Positions 828 to 32,275 of a stretch of DNA of 33,737 nucleotides are shown here, one piece after another (the first letter of the stretch is position 1; every line of letters begins with the position of its first letter). Under the pieces are notes generated by a model, which did not search any database, was not told the DNA's origin, and saw nothing but the letters and a program-made list of their open reading frames with translations. Source of the DNA: Calothrix rhizosoleniae SC01 (GTDB lineage Bacteria > Cyanobacteriota > Cyanobacteriia > Cyanobacteriales > Nostocaceae); the NCBI RefSeq assembly GCF_900185595.1, contig NZ_FYBH01000349.1:1-33737 (forward strand), given 5' to 3'. A program made the position numbers and the translations under genes.

Positions 828-958
828 GTAGATTGGGTGGAGACGCACAATAATTTTAATTTAAAATGAATAATCTTAATTTGCGTCGTAACCCAACACA
901 ATATTTCAGGTAAATGAGAGATTAAATGTTGGGTTTCGCTTCGCTGCACCCAATCTAC
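828..958. repeat. Nested palindromic repeat (MITE-like)
   Basis: The outer arms are GTAGATTGGGT at 828-838 and its exact complement ACCCAATCTAC at 948-958. Inside lies a second pair, AACCCAACA at 890-898 and TGTTGGGTT at 927-935. The 131-bp unit has no coding capacity. Short palindromes built on GTTGGGTTTCGCTTCGCTG-type sequence are common as dispersed repeats in filamentous cyanobacteria. The rest of the 536-1008 gap holds only the hic remnants and AT-rich sequence. Confidence 0.7.
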
Positions 959-1008: not shown

Positions 1009-3861
1009 CTACCAAATAGCTCTTATCGGCTCATTTATCGGCTCCTGAACCGCCACCGCCACCGCCACAACCCGAAAACCAACAACGTTGCCCCGACCCG
1101 CGCGCGCGCTTCTGCCGCGATAAGCAGCACGACAGTTCCTGGCATTGCCGAGCCACGAACCACCACGCAGCAGCTTTATGTCATTATCATTACCAGTTAA
1201 CCACGCACTTCCATCTCTTGGCGCGTTCTGGTAATTCTCATTATACACATCTTCGCACCATTCCCATATATTACCATGCATATCGTACAAACCAAAGGCA
1301 TTGGGTGGAAATGTTCCTACATCTGTAGTTCTTTCCCTGTATTCACTCTTGGGTGCAGAACCATATGGATAGTTCCCGTCGTAGTTAACTAAATCAGTGG
1401 TAATAGTCTCCCCAAAGTAAAAAGGTGTAGTTGTACCTGCACGGCAAGCATATTCCCATTCCGCTTCACTGGGTAATCTGTAGGTACGCCCTGTTTTTTG
1501 ACTCAGCTTTTTGCAAAACTCCACTGCATCATTCCAGGATACCTCTTCTACGGGTCGCTTTTCCCCTTTGAAACTGGAGGGATTTTTACCCATAATTGCT
1601 TGATACTGGGCTTGGGTAACTGCATACCTCCCCATAAAGAATCCAGGAACTGTAACTTGACGCTGTGGTCCTTCATCGTCATCTCTCTGTGCTTCCCCTG
1701 CTGGTGAACCCATAGTAAATGTTCCCCCTGGTATCTGTACTATCTCCAAGGTGACACCATTCCCCAAGTCTTCAGCAAAGTGTTTTGCCCCTAATTGCCT
1801 ACGGTTTACAATTGCTCCTTTACTATCTACTGTTACAGTTTCAAAGTCCAAGGTTTGTAGCAAGAAATTGGACTTTGTGGAGATTTTTGTGACAGGAGAT
1901 GGTGGGCTTACTATTTGCGGAGTTGATATTTGTGAAGAAGTAGAAGTAGAAGTAGAAGTAGTTGATGTCTGTGATGAAGTATCTGTAATTAATTTACTCA
2001 CAACAAAAAGGGAGCATCCCAAACCAGCACCCACCCACTCCATAAATTTCCGACGGGATGGGTTGACAGGTGTTAGTGCCTTCTGATTGGCTTGCTGATT
2101 CTGATTAATTGCTGGTGAAGGAATTGTACTCGCAGGCTGAGGAGTTGGTGGTTTAGGTGGGGGTGGTTGATTTCTGGGTGGTTGGGGAGTTACTGGTGTA
2201 GGAGTTGGTGGTTGGGGAATAACTACTGGTTCCTTTAATAATTCCAACCATTCCTGCATAGTTTGCGGACGATTTTCTGGTTCCACCTCCATCCCTTTCA
2301 ATATTGCGTCATTCACCCTGACGCTAAGACTAGGATTAATACTCCTTGGTAAATCTAACACCACTCCACTCACCCGATTTAAAGCAGGATGGGGTAGATG
2401 TTTTGTCACTAAAAAATACAACGTCGCAGCTAAAGCATAAACATCAGTATAAGCACCCCGCTTTGCCACAGTTTGATATTGTTCAATGGGTGCGAAACAA
2501 TGGGAAAGATAAGGAGTATGTAACCTGGTTTGACTAGAGGTAAACTCCCTAGCAATGCCAAAGTCAATTAACACTGCTTCTGGTTTCCCGGTACGGATGA
2601 GAATATTTGCTGGCTTCACATCCCGATGCAACAACCCATTGTTGTGAACTACCGTTAATGCTTCTCCTATTTGGCGAATATATCCTACTGCTTCCGCTTC
2701 CGGTAACGCACCTCTATTAACCACGATATCTGCCAGGTGTTCCCCTTGAATATATTCCATTGCCATACACCAAAGGTTTCCTTCCTGGAATACTTCATGG
2801 ACTTTGACAACATGGGGATGGTTGCACTTGGCTAACTTTACCGCTTCGTTGAGAAAATCTTGTTGGAATTTGGCAAAGTCAGGACGTTTTTGTACTTTCT
2901 CATTCAAACTTTTGATCACAACCCGTTGGTTACGTTCATCCCTAGCTAAATAAGTAATCCCAAAACCACCTTCAGCAATATCTCTTTCAATGGTGTACTT
3001 ACCGTTTTGTAACTGGTGTCCCTGTTGCCAAATCGTCACTGATTCCTCAGTCAGCAACTCCAACCACTCCTGCATAGTTTGAGGACGGTTTTCTGGCTCC
3101 AATTCCATCCCCTTGAGAATGGATTGGTTTAACTCATCGCTAATACTAGAATTATGCTCAGTTGGGGGAACCAATGGCATATTATAAGCTTTACGCTGAA
3201 AAGATTCTGTTGGTCTTTTCCCTGTAATTGCATAGTACAGGGAAGCCGTGAGGGAATATACATCAACGTAGGGTTTTCTATCTCCCCGCATTTGTTCGTG
3301 GGGTGCAAACCCCGGATTCCCAAAAAACCGAGAACTGACGGTGGTGGGCATTGTTTCTCCCGCAATGCCAAAATCTATTAATACAGCCTTGCCATCCTGT
3401 TGAATCATCATATTCCCCGGATGGGCATCTCTATGTACCAAACCCGCTTGGTGAACTACCTGTAATGCATCACCAATTTGGGTAATATATTGCAAAGCCT
3501 CTTCTACTGGTAATGCCCCTCTACGTTGCACCAGGTTAAATAAACTCTCTCCCTGGACAAAATCCATTACCAAACAGTAAGTACCACCCTCATGAAATAA
3601 ATCCCTTACCCGGACAATATTGGGGTGCTGAGTTTCCGAAAGTCTTTCTAATCGCTGTCCTTCGTTGATAAATCGCTTGATGTAGTTTGCATATTCTGGG
3701 TCATTTTTCAAGCTTTCGTTAGGTGTTTTAATAACTACCAAATTATCCAGTATGGAGTGTCGTGCTTTGTAGGTAATACCAAACCCACCTTGCCCAAGCA
3801 CCTGCTCAATAACATACTTTCCACCTTGTAATTGCTGCCCAGATGCCCACACCATCGCCAT
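1009..3861 (-). CDS. Dual Ser/Thr protein kinase with C-terminal FGE-like (C-type lectin fold) domain; probable DGR target
   Basis: Residue numbers follow the longest frame, which starts at 3930. The likelier starts are MAMVWASGQ (M24, 3861) or M26 (3855), because homologous kinases begin close to this motif. Kinase 1 (about 38-290) has GQGGFG, Lys68, the loop HRDAHPGN (166-173) and DFG at 186. The catalytic-loop Lys is His170 here, so activity is doubtful. Kinase 2 (about 310-565) looks complete: EGGFG, Lys340, HRDVKPAN (435-442) and DFG at 456. A Pro-rich linker (570-600) and the motif SRRKFMEW with a hydrophobic segment (625-648) follow. A Ser/Thr-rich spacer leads to an FGE-sulfatase-type domain (about 695-955; PGGTFTMGS, EAEWEYACRAG, GLYDMHGNIWEWCED, RGGSW, GFRVV). 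I infer cytoplasmic kinases and an exported binding domain. The gene is divergent from serC. The last ~110 bp of the fold look like a DGR variable region. Confidence 0.9.
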   Translation of the reverse strand: MAMVWASGQQLQGGKYVIEQVLGQGGFGITYKARHSILDNLVVIKTPNESLKNDPEYANYIKRFINEGQRLERLSETQHPNIVRVRDLFHEGGTYCLVMDFVQGESLFNLVQRRGALPVEEALQYITQIGDALQVVHQAGLVHRDAHPGNMMIQQDGKAVLIDFGIAGETMPTTVSSRFFGNPGFAPHEQMRGDRKPYVDVYSLTASLYYAITGKRPTESFQRKAYNMPLVPPTEHNSSISDELNQSILKGMELEPENRPQTMQEWLELLTEESVTIWQQGHQLQNGKYTIERDIAEGGFGITYLARDERNQRVVIKSLNEKVQKRPDFAKFQQDFLNEAVKLAKCNHPHVVKVHEVFQEGNLWCMAMEYIQGEHLADIVVNRGALPEAEAVGYIRQIGEALTVVHNNGLLHRDVKPANILIRTGKPEAVLIDFGIAREFTSSQTRLHTPYLSHCFAPIEQYQTVAKRGAYTDVYALAATLYFLVTKHLPHPALNRVSGVVLDLPRSINPSLSVRVNDAILKGMEVEPENRPQTMQEWLELLKEPVVIPQPPTPTPVTPQPPRNQPPPPKPPTPQPASTIPSPAINQNQQANQKALTPVNPSRRKFMEWVGAGLGCSLFVVSKLITDTSSQTSTTSTSTSTSSQISTPQIVSPPSPVTKISTKSNFLLQTLDFETVTVDSKGAIVNRRQLGAKHFAEDLGNGVTLEIVQIPGGTFTMGSPAGEAQRDDDEGPQRQVTVPGFFMGRYAVTQAQYQAIMGKNPSSFKGEKRPVEEVSWNDAVEFCKKLSQKTGRTYRLPSEAEWEYACRAGTTTPFYFGETITTDLVNYDGNYPYGSAPKSEYRERTTDVGTFPPNAFGLYDMHGNIWEWCEDVYNENYQNAPRDGSAWLTGNDNDIKLLRGGSWLGNARNCRAAYRGRSARAGRGNVVGFRVVAVAVAVQEPINEPIRAIW
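1021..1068 (-). repeat. Short tandem repeats extending the kinase/FGE C-terminus
   Basis: Directly after the GFRVV codons the coding strand carries GTGGCG three times (1051-1068), encoding VAVAVA. Next come two near-identical 12-bp units starting GAGCCGATAA (1021-1044), encoding EPIN and EPIR. FGE-like domains normally end a few residues after GFRVV. These 18 or so extra residues look like slippage-type additions after the variable region. Confidence 0.6.
1066..1173 (-). other. Putative DGR variable region (VR) in the FGE-like domain
   Basis: In coding sense the block opens CTG CTG CGT GGT GGT TCG TGG and closes GGT TTT CGG GTT GTG. Between these anchors (1152 down to 1081) many codons are NNC or NNT, or otherwise derivable from A-containing template codons: CTC GGC AAT GCC ... 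GGC AGA AGC ... GGC AAC GTT GTT. Only about 11 of 72 bases are A in a generally AT-rich gene, and the block is strikingly GC-rich. This is what adenine-specific mutagenic homing produces from a template rich in AAC codons. The position, the last part of a C-type-lectin-fold domain between RGGSW and GFRVV, is the established site of DGR diversification. No template repeat or reverse transcriptase lies in the window, so the DGR would have to act in trans. Confidence 0.6.
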
Positions 3862-3941
3862 TTTATCTAAGGGACGTTGAGTATGATTATGGCAAAAATA
3901 CTCATGTTTATCAATTACTGAGTACACCAAATATAAATAGG

Positions 3942-7182: not shown

Positions 7183-7280
7183 GGAATTGGCTGCTGATGA
7201 TTTAAATATTTCTTTGCATTGTACCGCAGTCTAGGAAAGCTATAAATAACAAAATATATCGATGGGGTATGAATCAGAGT

Positions 7281-7362
7281 GCAAGTAATAAGTAATAAGT
7301 AATAAATAATAAGTCATAAGTTTACTGTTCATAGGTTTGGTGCTTCAACAATGTCTTAACCT
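7281..7362. repeat. Dispersed repeat with AAGTAATAAGTAAT array (copy 1)
   Basis: GTAATAA heptamers (7283-7320) lead into TTTACTGTTCATAGGTTTGG and a tail ending ACATTG-like in reverse. The reverse complement matches 17571-17644 almost base for base across about 75 bp, including the CCTATGAACAGTAAACTTA core. It fills most of the spacer between ftrC and the DUF58 gene. It is non-coding and of unknown function. Confidence 0.75.
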
Positions 7363-7471
7363 ATATGGGTAGTGCTATCTTTATGAAGGGTTGGGGATTG
7401 AGAGAATAGCAACTTCCTCGAATATTTTTAGCGAACCATGATGATTTCTAATTTATATAATTTATATTGAT

Positions 7472-15289: not shown

Positions 15290-17194
15290 TCAACAATCTA
15301 TCCAGTCCCAAAAATTCATCGCCACCCGAAATCCAGATATTCTCAATCCACCATCAGACTCATTCCAACTGCGACTAGCACTACGACACATATCCGGTGT
15401 AAAGTTCCAAGAACCACCGCGTAATACCCGACGATGTGCATCTCCACCAGTTTCCCAAACAGTACCATCAGTTGGTGCCCCTTCATAGTTATTATGCCAA
15501 GGATCGGCACACCATTCCCACACTAAGCCATGCATATCGTAGAGTCCAAAACTGTTCGCAACTTGGAAACTACCTACTGTGGTGGTTTCTTTGCGATATT
15601 TGCCATAACTACCCTGGGTTTGTGCCTTACCAGTGTTACAATTTGCTAACTTATTAGTAATAGTTTCACCAAAATGAAACGGTGTATTAGTTCCAGCACG
15701 ACAAGCATATTCCCATTCGGCTTCACTGAGTAAGCGATAATTTCGCCCAGTTTTTTGTCCAATTCTGGCACAAAATTCCCTAGCTTCATGCCAAGAAACA
15801 TTTTCTACTGGTCGATTTGCACCTCTAAACTTAGATGGATTAGGATGTAAATTTTGTTTGACTTTCGGTAAGGCTACCACTGCTCTCCATTGAGCCTGGG
15901 TAACAGGAAATTTACTGGCAAAAAAAGTTTCAATAGATACTGGGTGTTGAGGGCGCTCGTCTGCATCTCCTTCTGTGATTGGTGATCCCATAGTAAATGT
16001 ACCACCAGGAATTAATACCATATTAATAATGATGTCATTCCCCAATTCCTCAGTAAAGAATTTGGCATTACAGCGATCGCTACTATTTTTGTTACCATTA
16101 ATATCTACTGTCACCACCTCATATTCAAAAATTTGCAAACCAGATGGTGTGGATGTCAGCTTTTCTGGTTCGGGTTCTGGTAAGGTTTCGCGGATGATTT
16201 CTGGTTCTGGCTGAGGTAAAGTTGGTGATATTGTACTAGTAGAGCTGAGGATGGGTAAATTTGCTTTAGCACCGACTAAATCTCGTAAATCATTCAGTAC
16301 TTCCGTCGCTGATTGATATCTTTCCTTGGGTAAATGTTTCAACAACTTATCCAGAATCTTTCCCAAACCCTCACTGAGAATAATACCTTTCTCCTGCAAA
16401 ACTTCTCGCCATAACCAATCACCATTCATGGCATCATAAAGACGGTCATGAATTTGCCCATGAGCATCTTGTTCCGGTAAAGTTTGAGTAATCATGCGGA
16501 TACAAGTAACACCCAATGCATATAAATCGCTTGCTTGACAAGCAAACCCAGCCATTTGTTCACTAGGAGCATAACCAATAGTGTATATTGCCGTTGCTTG
16601 TCTGGCTAAACTAGTTTGTGTTACCTGCTTAGCTCCCCCAAAGTCAATTAATACCAATTTGCGATCGCTATGACGGCGGATGATATTATCTGGTTTAATA
16701 TCTCGATGAATCACATTACGGGAATGAACAAATTCCAGTACCGACAACAAATCGGTTAACATTTCTACAATGTCTGCTTCATTAAAGGACTTAGTCAGGA
16801 GTTCTTGCAGTAAAGTTTGTCCCTGAATCAATTCCTGCACCAAGCACAGGCTTAAACCTTGCTGAAAATAAGCCAGTAATTTGGGAATTTGTAAGTGATT
16901 TTCGCCTAACTCATACAGGTGAACGGCTTCCTCCTTAAATAATTCGGCAGCTTTAAGTCTTGCTCCCGTTCCCTGCACTTGGGGAAAGAATTGCTTAATT
17001 ACACAAGGAACATTCAGTCTATCTACATCTTCTGCGGCATAAGTTTTACTAAAACCACCTTCTCCGATGAGAGAGAGTACGCGGTAACGGTTCCTAAGGA
17101 GGATACCAAATTGATTTGACCCGCAGCTAGTGCAAAATTGATTGCCTTCAGCATTGAAGGGATTGGAACAATTGGGATTTTGGCAGATTCGCAT
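15290..17194 (-). CDS. Zinc-ribbon Ser/Thr protein kinase with C-terminal FGE-sulfatase-like domain
   Basis: The protein has 634 residues. An N-terminal zinc ribbon (C4, C9, C21, C24) is followed by a kinase domain (about 36-310). It has GEGGFSKTY, Lys67, the loop HRDIKPDN (163-170) and DFGGA with Asp184, so all catalytic residues are present. A Pro/Glu-rich linker (about 325-360) leads to an FGE-like domain (about 365-628; PGGTFTMGS, EAEWEYACRAG, GLYDMHGLVWEWC, RGGSW, GFRVAM). No membrane segment is seen, unlike the paralogue at 1009-3861. The codons between RGGSW and GFRV (AAC TTT ACA CCG GAT ATG ...) are ordinary and A-containing, so there is no DGR signature. It probably phosphorylates a partner in response to something bound by the FGE-like domain. 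Confidence 0.9.
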   Translation of the reverse strand: MRICQNPNCSNPFNAEGNQFCTSCGSNQFGILLRNRYRVLSLIGEGGFSKTYAAEDVDRLNVPCVIKQFFPQVQGTGARLKAAELFKEEAVHLYELGENHLQIPKLLAYFQQGLSLCLVQELIQGQTLLQELLTKSFNEADIVEMLTDLLSVLEFVHSRNVIHRDIKPDNIIRRHSDRKLVLIDFGGAKQVTQTSLARQATAIYTIGYAPSEQMAGFACQASDLYALGVTCIRMITQTLPEQDAHGQIHDRLYDAMNGDWLWREVLQEKGIILSEGLGKILDKLLKHLPKERYQSATEVLNDLRDLVGAKANLPILSSTSTISPTLPQPEPEIIRETLPEPEPEKLTSTPSGLQIFEYEVVTVDINGNKNSSDRCNAKFFTEELGNDIIINMVLIPGGTFTMGSPITEGDADERPQHPVSIETFFASKFPVTQAQWRAVVALPKVKQNLHPNPSKFRGANRPVENVSWHEAREFCARIGQKTGRNYRLLSEAEWEYACRAGTNTPFHFGETITNKLANCNTGKAQTQGSYGKYRKETTTVGSFQVANSFGLYDMHGLVWEWCADPWHNNYEGAPTDGTVWETGGDAHRRVLRGGSWNFTPDMCRSASRSWNESDGGLRISGFRVAMNFWDWIDC

Positions 17195-27614: not shown

Positions 27615-28511
27615 TCACTGCATCCTATCTATAGTGCGATACTGTATAGCTTCGGCAACATATTGAGTTTTGATATCCTCATCTCCGGCTAAATCTGCAA
27701 TTGTTCGTGCTACCTTGAGAATGCGATCACTTGCCCGTGCTGATAAACCTAGTTTTCTAATGGCACTTTCTAATAAGTTGCGACTGGCATCATCTAACTG
27801 ACACCATTTATATATGTGGCGGCTCTGCATCTGTGCATTACAACGCAGATTTTCTTCTCCTAGGAACCGTTTCCCGGCCCGAACCCGTGCCTTTTGCACC
27901 CTCTCCCGAACGGATGCAGAACCTTCCCCTGTGGGCTGTTGAGTAATTTCCTCTGGTTTAAGACGATTCACAGCCACTTGTAAATCAATCCGATCCATCA
28001 ATGGTCCTGATAATTTTGCCCAATATTGCTCTCTTTGTCTGGGAGAACAGGTACATTGCTGGATAGTATCGCCATAATAACCGCAAGGACAGGGGTTAGT
28101 ACTTGCCACTAAGGTAAACTGTGCGGGAAACATGACAGATTGTCTGGTGCGAGAAATTGTGACTAAACCATCTTCCAAGGGTTGGCGCAAAAACTCCAAT
28201 ACATCCCGTTTAAATTCTGTTAACTCATCTAGAAAAAGTACACCTAAATGTGATAAAGAAATTTCTCCCGGACGGGGATAACTACCGCCACCCACCAAAG
28301 AAGGACCCGATGCTGAATGGTGAGGACTGCGGAAAGGGCGTGAGCGAACTAAAGAACCACGGTTTTTTAATAAACCAGCTACAGAATGGATCCGAGTTAC
28401 TTCCAAAGCTTCAGAAAACTCCAACGGTGGTAGGATTCCCGGTAAACGCCTTGCTAGCATGGTTTTTCCACTTCCTGGGGGTCCCACAAAAATTAATAAA
28501 CAACAGCACAT
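27615..28511 (-). pseudogene. comM: ComM/YifB Mg-chelatase-like AAA+ ATPase, truncated at the 5' end by an inserted element
   Basis: The remaining 298 codons start MCCCLLIFVGPPGSGKTMLA. They keep Walker A (GPPGSGKT), SPHHSAS, Walker B (GVLFLDEL), STNPCPCGYYGD and the C-terminal SARASDRILKVARTIADLAG of the ComM family. A normal ComM has about 500-510 residues; the N-terminal ~210, a Lon-protease-like domain, are absent. Family similarity begins at LLIFVGPP, so DNA to the right of about 28500 is foreign. ComM is a hexameric helicase that promotes branch migration in natural transformation. The foreign DNA supplies an ATG, so a headless protein might still be made. The 5' half should lie beyond the right edge. 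Confidence 0.88.
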
Positions 28512-28703: not shown

Positions 28704-29825
28704 ATGAAAGTCCAAAGGGTGCGATTAGATGGCGACAAGGTAACTTGGCTAGTCATAGGAGATGACTATTTACCAATTGAACCCATTCAGCAATTTCTAA
28801 ATTACTTAAGGAATATTGAAAGAAGTCCTAACACTATAAGGTCTTATGCATATCACCTCATGCTTTACTGGAAATATCTTGATGAGGTGAGTGTTGATTG
28901 GACAAAAATTGACATCCCTAAGTTAGCAGAATTTATCCACTGGCTGAGAAGCCCAACTGGTAGCGTGATATCACTTCAGGAGCAAGAGTCAAAGCGAACA
29001 GAAGCGACTGTGAATTTGATTCTGACTTCTGTCTGTATGTTATACGATTTCCACGAGCAAGCGGGAAACGTTTCAGAAATATCTCTTTATCGCTCACAAT
29101 TCGTACCCAACAGAAGATATAAAAGCTTTTTGCATCACATCAATAAAAGCAAGCCAACTAAAACTCGCTTGTTAAAACTAAAACAGCCCAGGCTTCAACC
29201 AAAGACAATTACTCCGGGAGAAGCGGAAAAACTTGTCAGTGCTTGTAATCGCATAAGGGATAAGTTTTTGGTATGTTTGATGTATGAAAGCGGAGTTAGA
29301 ATTGGGCAAGCTTTAGGGCTAAGGCATGAAGATATTCAATCCTGGGATAACATCATAAAAATCATCCCCAGAGATGACAATGTTAATGGTTCCCGTGCCA
29401 AAACGAAAGATCCTTATGAAGTCAACGTTTCAAAAGACTTGATGGGACTTTACACTCAGTATTTGCAAGAAGAGTTTATGGAAGTACTAGGTGATAACCT
29501 GAGCGATTACGTTTTTGTAAACCTTTGGGATGGGAAAGTTGGCTCTCCTATGACTTATAGCAATGTAATGGCTCTCTTCTGTCGCCTCAAGAGGAAAACG
29601 GGGATAGCTATAACTCCCCACAGGCTTCGCCATAGCCATGCTACAGAACTAATTCGTGAAGGGATGCCAATGGCTTATGTTCAGAAACGATTGGGGCATT
29701 CCAGCATTCAAACCACTATCAACACTTATGTTCATGTCAGCAACGAAGACATGAAGCATGAATATCAAAAATATCTAGAAAATAGAGATGAGTCAAGCAC
29801 AACCAATATTCCAGAAGTCGATTAA
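28704..29825 (+). CDS. tnpA: Tyrosine recombinase, Tn554 TnpA-like
   Basis: The 373-residue protein has an N-terminal SAM-like core-binding domain (about 25-125; SPNTIRSYAYHLMLYWKYL) and a catalytic domain (about 165-355). The full tyrosine-recombinase set is visible: Arg199 in YESGVRIGQALGL, His306-x-x-Arg309 in TPHRLRHSHATEL, His332 in RLGHSSIQTT and the nucleophile Tyr342 in INTYVHVS. It is the first gene of a three-gene unit and overlaps the next by 38 bp. No strong Shine-Dalgarno sequence precedes the ATG. In Tn554, TnpA and TnpB together catalyse site-specific insertion and excision. The family assignment rests on length, gene order and partners. Confidence 0.88.
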   Translation: MKVQRVRLDGDKVTWLVIGDDYLPIEPIQQFLNYLRNIERSPNTIRSYAYHLMLYWKYLDEVSVDWTKIDIPKLAEFIHWLRSPTGSVISLQEQESKRTEATVNLILTSVCMLYDFHEQAGNVSEISLYRSQFVPNRRYKSFLHHINKSKPTKTRLLKLKQPRLQPKTITPGEAEKLVSACNRIRDKFLVCLMYESGVRIGQALGLRHEDIQSWDNIIKIIPRDDNVNGSRAKTKDPYEVNVSKDLMGLYTQYLQEEFMEVLGDNLSDYVFVNLWDGKVGSPMTYSNVMALFCRLKRKTGIAITPHRLRHSHATELIREGMPMAYVQKRLGHSSIQTTINTYVHVSNEDMKHEYQKYLENRDESSTTNIPEVD

Positions 29826-31371
29826 ACTTACTACTCCTCTTTTCTGTCCAAAGTGTAGTAGTAAGAATGTGGGCAAGAACGGGAAAAATTCTTCAGGAAG
29901 CCAAAGTTACATTTGCAAACAATGCAAAAAGATATTTACCCCAGTAGTTAAAGAAGAGGTTGAAAGGGTTGTTAATCCTAAACTGGAATACCTAAAAGAT
30001 ATTTGGGATTGTCGATGTTTAGGGATTGACGGTGGCGTAGGCAAGTCAAGTTACAAATTAAACTTTACACACTTATTCCAACCGTGGTTACGCAAAACAG
30101 CCAAAGCTTATCTAAAAGTCTGCTTAAGTTCCATAACATTCGCCTCTGTGCAAGAAAAGCTTTATTCGCTTAGAAGACTATCAAGTTTTTTAACTTCAGA
30201 CTACCCGCGCATTGAGCCAGAGGATATCGACCGGAAGGTAATCACTGATTTCACAATTCATTTGGCAAGCCTGAAGTTAGCTTCAAGTACACGATATAAA
30301 ATTCTTAGCGATACGCGGCTATTTTTTGACGCAGCTTACCAGAACAAATGGCTTAATGTATCGAGGTATCTTGTTCGTCCTGAAGACTTCCCCAAGCAAG
30401 AGAAAAGCGTTCCTCGGTATATTCCAGAAGTGGTTATGCAGCAGTTAAACGAGCATCTAGACGACCTGGCACTACCAATTATGAGAATGGTTTTAGTGCT
30501 TCAGGAATGCGGGATGCGTATTTCAGAGTTGGTAAATCTGAGTTTTGATTGCCTTTTACAAGACAAAGCTGGTGACTGGTTTTTGAGATATTACCAATTC
30601 AAGATGAAGAAGGAGATAACAATTCCCATCTCACGGGAAGTTGTTAGAGTCATCCAGGAGCAACAAAAGTATATCCGTCAATACTTTACTCAAGAAGAGT
30701 TTGATTATTTGTTCTCTGCTAACAAAGGTGCAGCAACCCCTAACTTTGTCCCATCACCTTCTGTTATGGAACGCCGTACTCTACCTAGGCATCTCAACCG
30801 ATTAGCTAAGAGGCACAACATTTGTGACAGTCCTGGGAATATTTGGCATTTTCAAACCCATCAATTTCGCCACACCGTAGGAACGCGGATGATAAACAAC
30901 GGCGTTCCTCAGCATATAGTCCAGAAGTATCTGGGTCACGAGTCGCCTGACATGACATCTACTTATGCCCATATTCACGACCAAACCATGAAAGAAGAGG
31001 TTGCTAAATTTCATGGCAAGGTAGTGAACATATCGGGTCAAGTTGTTGAGGAAGTTTGCCCGGAAGTAGAAATTCAAGATTTGCAGTGGTTTAAGAAAAC
31101 GATTCAAGCTCAAGCATTACCTAATGGCTCTTGCGCGTTACCAACTATTTCCCAAGGTTGCCCCCATGCTAATGCCTGTTTAACCTGTACACACTTCCGC
31201 ACCACTAAAGAGCATATTGACAAGCACAAACAGCAGTTAGAGCAAACTGAACAAATCATTGAGAAAGCTAATGCTAATGGTTGGGTGCGGCAAGTGGAGA
31301 TGAACGAAAAAGTCAAAACCAATCTAGAAAACATTATTTCAGCATTAGAGGGGAAAGTAGATGGCAATTAA
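29788..31371 (+). CDS. tnpB: Tyrosine recombinase with zinc-ribbon ends, Tn554 TnpB-like
   Basis: The 527-residue protein opens with a zinc ribbon (C20-P-K-C23 and C43-K-Q-C46). A core-binding domain (about 105-200) and a catalytic domain (about 210-405) follow. Catalytic residues are Arg244 (CGMRISELVNL), His358-x-x-Arg361 (THQFRHTVGTR), His384 (KYLGHESP) and Tyr393 (STYAHIHD). A second Cys cluster (C458, C464, C467 in CPHANACLTCTHF) lies near the C-terminus, as in TnpB-type recombinases. The N-terminal ribbon with an S-G-S-Q-S-Y-I-C-K-Q-C pattern resembles the DNA-binding ribbons of IS1-type transposases. It overlaps tnpA by 38 bp and tnpC by 11 bp, so the three are co-translated. The frame is complete. 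Confidence 0.88.
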   Translation: MSQAQPIFQKSIKLTTPLFCPKCSSKNVGKNGKNSSGSQSYICKQCKKIFTPVVKEEVERVVNPKLEYLKDIWDCRCLGIDGGVGKSSYKLNFTHLFQPWLRKTAKAYLKVCLSSITFASVQEKLYSLRRLSSFLTSDYPRIEPEDIDRKVITDFTIHLASLKLASSTRYKILSDTRLFFDAAYQNKWLNVSRYLVRPEDFPKQEKSVPRYIPEVVMQQLNEHLDDLALPIMRMVLVLQECGMRISELVNLSFDCLLQDKAGDWFLRYYQFKMKKEITIPISREVVRVIQEQQKYIRQYFTQEEFDYLFSANKGAATPNFVPSPSVMERRTLPRHLNRLAKRHNICDSPGNIWHFQTHQFRHTVGTRMINNGVPQHIVQKYLGHESPDMTSTYAHIHDQTMKEEVAKFHGKVVNISGQVVEEVCPEVEIQDLQWFKKTIQAQALPNGSCALPTISQGCPHANACLTCTHFRTTKEHIDKHKQQLEQTEQIIEKANANGWVRQVEMNEKVKTNLENIISALEGKVDGN

Positions 31372-32275
31372 GAGGAATGTTAACGGGCTGCGTAGCAATG
31401 CTCAAAAGAAGCGACAAGAGGCATTCAATAAAGTTGAGCAAGGAATCCAGCAACTGCTTAAAGATAAACAAGCTATTAATTTTAATACAGTTGCCAAAGC
31501 TGCGGGATTAAGCAAAGCATGGCTGTATAAGGAGCCGGAAATCAAAGCTAGGATAGAGCATCTAAGGGAAAATCACTCAAAAACCAAAGTTATACCGCAA
31601 AAGCAAAGAATATCAGATTCATCAAAAGATGCGATAGTTAAAACTTTAAAAGAAAGAGTCAAAAAGATTGAAGCCGAGAACAGGGGACTGCGCGAACAGT
31701 TTGAAGCGATTTATGGTCGAGTTTTATACACTTCTGAGCTTGAAAAACGCTTAGAAGCACTAGAAGCAGAAAACTTGAAGTTAAAAGAAGAACTCAGTAT
31801 ATGCCATAATCAATTGTTTAAACCTTCGCCAAATAACAATCCTAATGTTGTCCAGTTTTCAGTAAAACAATCAAAAGGAGAAGTTAGCGATGCTATCGAA
31901 AATGAGTTAGATGATCTGGGAATTAAGCTAACCAAGACGCTGGCTAACAAAATCAAAAATTCAACGGAAGAAGCTGTTTTAATTGCGATTCAAGCACTAA
32001 AGCAGCAACTACAACACCAAACTATTAGAAGTCCTGGGGGATGGTTGGCGAGTGCAATTGATAATGGATGGCAACCTAATCAAGCTATCGGTGAAGAGAA
32101 CGTTACGGATAAATTTGGTCAATGGTATCATTTAGCACGAGAGCAAGGAATTGTTACCGCAAGCCGGAAGGAAGACGACGGTACTATTTTGGTTAGAGAA
32201 AACACTGGGCAGTGGGTAGACTTTGAAGAGTTTTCGTCTAAATGGACACTTGAGTACTTGCGTTCAAGAATGTGA
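31361..32275 (+). CDS. tnpC: TnpC-like accessory transposition protein (DUF6262 type)
   Basis: The 304-residue protein starts inside the end of tnpB after AGAGGGGAAA, a good ribosome binding site. The N-terminal NFNTVAKAAGLSKAWLYKEPEI is a helix-turn-helix like those in Tn554 TnpC/DUF6262 proteins. A coiled coil follows (about 90-150; KERVKKIEAENRGLREQF, LEKRLEALEAENLKLKEEL). The second half (about 185-304) holds AIQALKQQLQ and PGGWLASAIDNGWQPN, a segment also seen in replication/transposition-associated helical proteins. Tn554 TnpC (about 125 residues) affects orientation and efficiency of transposition. This version is more than twice as long, so it may have an added C-terminal domain. Confidence 0.75.
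   Translation: MAIKRNVNGLRSNAQKKRQEAFNKVEQGIQQLLKDKQAINFNTVAKAAGLSKAWLYKEPEIKARIEHLRENHSKTKVIPQKQRISDSSKDAIVKTLKERVKKIEAENRGLREQFEAIYGRVLYTSELEKRLEALEAENLKLKEELSICHNQLFKPSPNNNPNVVQFSVKQSKGEVSDAIENELDDLGIKLTKTLANKIKNSTEEAVLIAIQALKQQLQHQTIRSPGGWLASAIDNGWQPNQAIGEENVTDKFGQWYHLAREQGIVTASRKEDDGTILVRENTGQWVDFEEFSSKWTLEYLRSRM

Follow-up and report, generated by a model that had tools for sequence, protein, structure and literature searches.

The DNA considered here, hereafter the window, is a stretch of 33,737 nucleotides from the cyanobacterium Calothrix rhizosoleniae SC01 (assembly GCF_900185595.1, contig NZ_FYBH01000349.1, positions 1 to 33,737 of the forward strand). Near its start it carries, on the minus strand, a gene for a protein with two kinase domains and a C-terminal FGE-sulfatase domain (FGE, formylglycine-generating enzyme). 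With a probability of about 0.7, the block at 1066–1173 of this gene is the variable region (VR) of an orphaned, likely frozen target of a diversity-generating retroelement (DGR), i.e., a VR whose template repeat (TR) and reverse transcriptase (RT) are both gone. A first-pass annotation of the window had proposed a DGR-type VR on this kinase–FGE gene, which the A-specific differences from TRs of other genera bear out. It had also placed the TR and the RT elsewhere in the genome and taken the protein to be a receptor that diversifies itself now. This second part is unsupported because no RT, TR or TR-linked RNA was found in the draft assembly, where a contig may be missing, and an avd stub with stops is the only trace of the machinery.

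The target gene and its variable region

The gene (1009–3930, minus strand) has an intact reading frame of 973 amino acids (aa), with the block 1066–1173 at its 3′ end. Pfam recognizes Pkinase in two stretches and FGE-sulfatase with E 5e-56. Kinase domain 1 (aa 34–291; 3058–3831, minus) is covered by the best stretch of NCBIfam PknB_PASTA_kin, which scores below its cut-off, and by Pfam Pkinase in two stretches, and kinase domain 2 (about aa 312–557; 2260–2997, minus) by Pfam Pkinase at 312–521 and PK_Tyr_Ser-Thr at 314–557. The C-terminal FGE-sulfatase domain (aa 729–955; 1066–1746, minus) is assigned to the FGE/SUMF1-like, C-type-lectin (CLec) fold from its Pfam and PDB sequence matches, the latter being to PvdO (E 1.5e-40) and Treponema denticola variable protein 1 (2y3c, E 3e-25). 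The T. denticola protein, which we take to be a DGR target, belongs by sequence to the same domain family as the window FGE, but its matched chain is without kinase domains, unlike the window protein. The 3′ end of a CLec/FGE-fold gene is where the VR of a DGR target is expected.

On the coding strand, the 108 bases of the block have a GC fraction of 0.639 and an A fraction of 0.102, compared with 0.444 and 0.301 in the whole gene, and the GC-rich, adenine-poor character claimed for it, like its place between RGGSW and GFRVV, is confirmed. Among 2815 overlapping 108-base segments of the gene, 42 are equally GC-rich and 21 equally A-poor, and the gene-wide A minimum is the block itself. The limits first given to the block were close rather than exact: the homology to a TR spans 1051–1175, and the changed codons at Asn positions lie at about 1084–1152.

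The closest named relatives of the gene are in Calothrix sp. MO_167.B12 (81%, best segment) and MO_192.B10 (82%), both metagenome-assembled genomes. Orthologs are held by G001 and G002, two genomes of the same genus as that of the window (G000). Against these two orthologs, the ratio of nonsynonymous to synonymous substitution rates (dN/dS, NG86) is 0.087 and 0.092 in the kinases, 0.199 and 0.176 in the FGE domain, and 1.06 and 0.71 in the VR, the last pair being rough with only 25 codons. Because dN/dS is low in the kinases and the FGE, these ratios indicate that the kinases and the FGE body are maintained under purifying selection. According to a published hypothesis for kinase–CLec proteins, the FGE/CLec face is a ligand sensor that controls the kinases (PMC7517822), and by analogy the FGE face of the present protein may do the same; putative antigen sensing is an alternative view in two other papers (PMC10907252; PMC12691664).

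Evidence for A-specific mutagenic homing

G008, which belongs to another genus of the same family, has a related FGE gene with a TR 326 bases 3′ of its VR. A DNA search with this TR gave a single match in G000 at E<=1, which is the window VR at 1051–1175 on the minus strand (E 6e-18, 75% identity), and the same TR search yielded a cleaner TR of the same type in G004, reading LLRGGSWNNNARNCRSANRNRNARANRNNNVGFRVVAVAVA. The window VR differs from the G004 TR at 14/24 A sites vs. 14/93 non-A sites (p 4e-5), or, in a narrower core comparison, at 14/24 vs. 12/63 (p 6e-4). The same bias is found against the TRs of G008 (14/21 A vs. 17/96 non-A sites), Nostoc sp. CHAB 5836 (13/23 vs. 14/94) and Fortiea (18/27 vs. 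13/90), all of the TRs compared with the window VR being from other genomes, i.e., other genera. Read as codons, the residue has changed at 8 of the 11 Asn codons of the G004 TR and at 1 of its 30 other codons (p 1.4e-5). These 11 codons lie in a hypervariable core at 1084–1154 (minus strand), where the window has CTC GGC AAT AAC TAT GGC AGC GGT GGC AAC GTT in place of AAC/AAT; all 11 end in C or T, as had been anticipated for this block.

Comparisons of TRs with one another across genomes showed no A excess (1/21 vs. 11/96; 2/24 vs. 7/93; 1/24 vs. 20/93). Eight within-genome VR–TR pairs differ at 11–20 A sites and 0–6 non-A sites, and the 14 non-A differences of the window VR come from the comparison being made across genera. 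Because the differences concentrate at template A and the TR–TR controls are without A excess, the block is, as far as sequence can establish it, a product of A-specific mutagenic homing and a genuine DGR VR; an even spread of differences, which the first-pass annotation had named as the contrary outcome, was not observed. Where the G004 TR has NNNARNC, that of G008 (L083 7112–7246) has INNALFC, which looks like a change of the template itself at codons containing A.

The case of a plain FGE paralog, diverged without any DGR history, was rejected on the same data and is highly improbable: the FGE frame RGGSW..GFRV is conserved, with widespread variation between its two motifs, but the codon test (8/11 vs. 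1/30, with the third base kept as C/T in all 11) and the unbiased TR–TR control speak against such an origin.

Search for DGR machinery in the genome of the window

The G000 assembly is a draft of 5.97 Mb in 472 contigs, 99.89% complete by tool estimate. The RVT_1 profile has no match in it, while it is present in 51 of the 59 genomes searched, a set that includes G000. Likewise, the cyanobacterial DGR RT of G003 (P0001), which has near full-length relatives (>=490 bits) in 17/59 genomes, has no match in G000 at E<=1. With TR DNA of the matching type, only the VR of the window itself was found at E<=1 and no template copy, and a TR nearly identical to the VR at non-A sites was not found within G000. 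The TR of G001 gave one weak match in G000, within an FGE gene. A TR peptide search of G000 gave 17 places, of which 16 are in open frames of at least 284 aa and one is in a 161-aa frame with a stop; a template-like run of Asn is absent from the 15 distinct places read (0–4 Asn in the motif), those on contigs C302 and C159, which did not match the motif, being left out. R1, a model of the TR-linked RNA described below, found nothing in G000, even when searched alone up to E 10, an empty answer that on its own shows little.

The only trace of machinery is on contig C407, where a VR gene is followed by 41 avd residues with two stops and then by other sequence. This stub (C407:350–472) covers 41/104 positions of the family with E 2e-7, below the cut-off. 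In G003, the RT comes directly after avd, but the roughly 350 bases between the C407 stub and the end of the contig gave no match to the G001 or G003 DGR. The C407 VR differs from the TR on G001 contig C280 at 16/31 A vs. 10/77 non-A sites. A template near-repeat with RT and avd, which the annotation had expected elsewhere in the genome, was sought and not found in this assembly.

Outside the window, 13 further VR-like FGE places were seen in G000, on contigs C225, C229, C327, C365, C380, C390, C403, C407, C409, C435 and C436; several have a common RAERD-type frame ending GFRVVCA[FV]G. Short sequence matches in G000 on C435 and C380 are FGE genes, and a 22-base match of C382 to the GC-rich tail was discarded, as a motif scan found no RGGSW..GFRV frame in locus L004.

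Stages of loss at one orthologous gene

The G001 ortholog has its VR, with a TR 347 bases downstream and with the RNA element, and an intact avd–RT–TR set is on contig C280, separate from the contig of the ortholog. From the differences between this VR and its TR (12/28 A vs. 1/86 non-A sites), it is concluded that an RT acts, or recently acted, on the pair, apparently in trans. In G002, the ortholog has kept the VR but has no TR any more, and of the RNA element just the 3′ part is left (E 5e-5); the RT of G002 matches no more than residues 1–121 and 113–190 of 353. An insert containing a stop separates these two parts, and the catalytic YVDD is at 232. In the window, the VR stands alone and the original stop is lost. 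Directly behind the gene is a dispersed repeat (865–958, minus strand; 78% over 95 bases to L085 8505–8596, the similar repeat that lies past the TR in G001). G001, G002 and the window are, in this order, stages of DGR loss at one orthologous gene in one genus.

By its sequence, the VR derives from the A-rich TR type NNNARNC..RNRNARANRNNNVGFRVVAVAVA, today found in other genera, via substitutions concentrated at template A. In the proposed course of events, a trans-acting RT of an ancestor would have rewritten the gene, using as template a TR that lay a few hundred bases to its 3′ side. This gene-then-TR layout is still present in G001, and also in G008, although the RT of the latter has decayed. 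Loss of the TR would have taken place beside dispersed repeats, the RT would have been lost from the lineage, and the last homed variant may now be a fixed, putative ligand-binding face on a two-kinase signalling protein.

The rearranged 3′ end and the remaining alternatives

At 1009–1053 (minus strand), the 3′ end of the gene is rearranged: the original stop is lost, 13 extra residues follow, and the VR flank is degenerate, reading CAGGAGCC. Flanks were tabulated for 164 distinct RGGSW..GFRV places, of which 123 are in long open reading frames (ORFs), 32 are TRs and 9 were classed as "other". The VR-type motif AGGA[CT]T, which presumably reflects the site of homing initiation, follows 70 of the 123 VR ORFs and none of the 32 TRs, and it is absent behind the window VR. 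The TR-type motif AG[CT][AG]CTC follows 27 of the 32 TRs, the other 5 having neither. Among the VR ORFs, 4 of the 70 have the TR motif too, 3 have the TR motif only, and 50 have neither.

The gene resembles different relatives along its length. Upstream, at columns 828–887 of the alignment, the gene is closest to G001/G002 (53–56/60 bases per 20 codons, vs. 44–48 for G008). Just before the VR, the figures are 47/57 for G008 vs. 33–35/57 for G001/G002, and within the VR 47/60 vs. 33–36/60. Because this G008-like stretch starts before the VR, by about 25 codons, the 3′ end is probably owed in part to ordinary recombination with a gene of the G008 type.

The FGE tail and the VR might accordingly have arrived ready-made from a G008-type FGE gene and never have been diversified in this lineage, an origin that we hold to be unlikely, though a real contender. 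It is favored by the switch of similarity and by the PGGR type of TR that the G001 and G002 orthologs use. On the other side, a single donor-like gene was compared, and the gene could once have been served locally by an ARAN-type TR that has since been lost. This origin overlaps with the orphaned-target reading, as the VR would still be a DGR product and still be orphaned.

A lower probability, still short of negligible, is given to an active remote target, i.e., a TR and an RT that are in the cell but missing from the 472-contig draft, with the gene still being diversified in trans. Trans service of this kind is suggested in G001 by the RT on the other contig (12/28 vs. 1/86), and 8 of the 15 VR-like genes of G000 retain the VR flank motif. 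This alternative is opposed by the searches for an RT, for a TR as DNA or as peptide and for the TR-linked RNA, which were independent of one another and all empty, by the reduction of avd to a stub, and by the degenerate flank motif and stop of the gene itself.

Several observations weigh against an orphaned, frozen target. In a 472-contig draft, an RT or TR present in one copy may have escaped assembly; no more than about 350 bases of contig C407 lie beyond the avd stub; and two further avd-family matches in G000, with E 0.022 and 0.093, are weak and below the cut-off. The empty answer of the RNA model is by itself weak evidence, a caveat of the tool. The VR flank motif retained at 8 of the 15 distinct VR-like places fits a recent loss or an unseen DGR, the last roughly 80 codons are closer to G008 than to the orthologs, and the sample is one genome per species. 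Against decay in cis, 50 of the 123 VR ORFs carry neither flank motif.

Recombination between VR and TR as direct repeats, deleting the TR and leaving a hybrid, is the least credible origin: the two are direct repeats about 320–350 bases apart in G008 and G001 and the stop region of the window gene is rearranged, but the 70 bases after the VR match 33 TR flanks no better than shuffles do (49/300 reach the best score, 74/300 the mean), 13 of 122 other VR flanks also reach the alignment score of the window, and neither a profile hidden Markov model of the 33 TR flanks nor the RNA model finds anything behind the gene, the best RNA-model hit (8.6 bits, E 0.48) being elsewhere in the window.

A structured RNA linked to template repeats

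Behind the TRs lies a stretch that is conserved among them. Of 32 TR flanks (three listings of one TR without the anchor word, L058, L096 and L128, having been skipped), 29 entered alignment A1, from which L106, L123 and L258 were left out; 28/29 align throughout and L219 departs after about 45 columns. Alignment A2 (27 rows), and hence model R1, leaves out L116 and L219. It supports four helices, with 97.2% of cells paired and two-sided changes at 22 of 31 pairs, and its covariation exceeds all 500 shuffles and all slid versions, for a structure derived from the same alignment. A covarying RNA of about 150 nucleotides is thus seen downstream of cyanobacterial TRs, e.g., at L101:8756–8905, L083 about 7246–7395 and L125:1351–1500 (minus strand). 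No Rfam family scored above threshold on three loci containing it. At L125 (G004 contig C38), a TR and the RNA element are present with no FGE gene in the 3.1 kb covered, i.e., a free-standing template.

Model R1 finds the element at E<=1e-17 in 24/59 genomes, including all 17 with a near full-length RT. Many of the positive genomes supplied training rows, while no handle-labelled locus of G007, G024, G031 or G057 did; three training rows are from named records not matched to genome handles, and the E-values are rough. Seven of the 24 genomes are without a near full-length DGR RT, namely G008, G011, G024, G030, G031, G034 and G035 (loci L083, L090, L290, L121, L123, L094 and L095, respectively). 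RT fragments are present in G008, G030, G031 and G034, none above 50 bits was found in G024 and G035, and none at all in G011. The assemblies of G008, G011, G030 and G034 consist of 1 to 5 contigs. In two of the seven, the VR–TR pairs still differ almost only at A sites (G011, 14/25 vs. 1/86; G034, 11/26 vs. 0/82). The RNA model is a practical finder for templates without a nearby RT.

Relation to known systems

The complete DGR of G003 (locus L101) resembles the window in its FGE target, its RGGSW..GFRVV frame and its A-specific differences (14/31 vs. 0/86). Unlike in the window, avd, RT, TR and RNA element are all adjacent to it, and its avd scores as both DivGenRetAVD and bAvd.

For cyanobacteria, DGR "remote variable proteins" that carry kinase and CLec domains have been described (Vallota-Eastman et al. 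2020, PMC7517822). Like the window gene, they combine a Ser/Thr kinase with a C-terminal CLec-type domain and have a 3′ VR on a target away from the RT. However, they were defined by VR identity (>=50%) to a DGR of the same genome, whereas no DGR was found in the genome of the window, the matching TR being in other genera. Targets at loci without an intact RT/TR also occur in Thiohalocapsa PB-PSB1, where, in contrast to the genome of the window, intact components are found elsewhere in the genome or in population variants (PMC10907252). Pseudogulbenkiania sp. NH8B (DiGReF, PMC3521204), with distal targets and a strongly mutated RT nearby, parallels the present case in the decay of an RT near target genes, but there an RT that remains is believed to act on all of the targets, unlike in the genome of the window. 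In Nostoc punctiforme, which has an intact DGR, mutation at A positions is reported at a low level (PMC12691664).

Published accounts thus already cover kinase–CLec remote targets, action in trans, the disruption of DGR loci and the decay of RTs. Among the top-ranked titles and abstract openings of a literature search, none described DGR targets that persist in a genome lacking every DGR. The window gene joins these published cases as a probable orphaned target.

Other features of the window

A second kinase–FGE gene at 15290–17194 (minus strand) carries RGGSWNFTPDMCRSASRSWNESDGGLRISGFRV and neither flank motif; it is possibly an older VR or a non-DGR paralog. At 27615–28511 (minus strand), a Mg-chelatase/ComM-like gene without its N-terminal part adjoins 28704–32275 (plus strand), which holds two tyrosine recombinases and a DUF6262 gene. 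This set, which we take to be a Tn554-type element, looks like an insertion in comM.

Implications

The window gene and its two orthologs allow the loss of a DGR to be followed in ordered steps at a single locus within a genus, and what was suspected to be a live hypermutation site is a probable relic. If the frozen state is true, the gene would test whether a binding face made by a DGR is worth keeping after diversification stops. For filamentous cyanobacteria at large, we see even odds that the DGR enzyme is repeatedly lost while its products are kept, i.e., receptor kinases frozen in the form that homing last gave them and, in some genomes that are complete or nearly so, TR–VR pairs with the structured RNA and no intact RT. 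If so, these genomes would hold a natural record of receptor variants that were fixed after their diversifier was gone.

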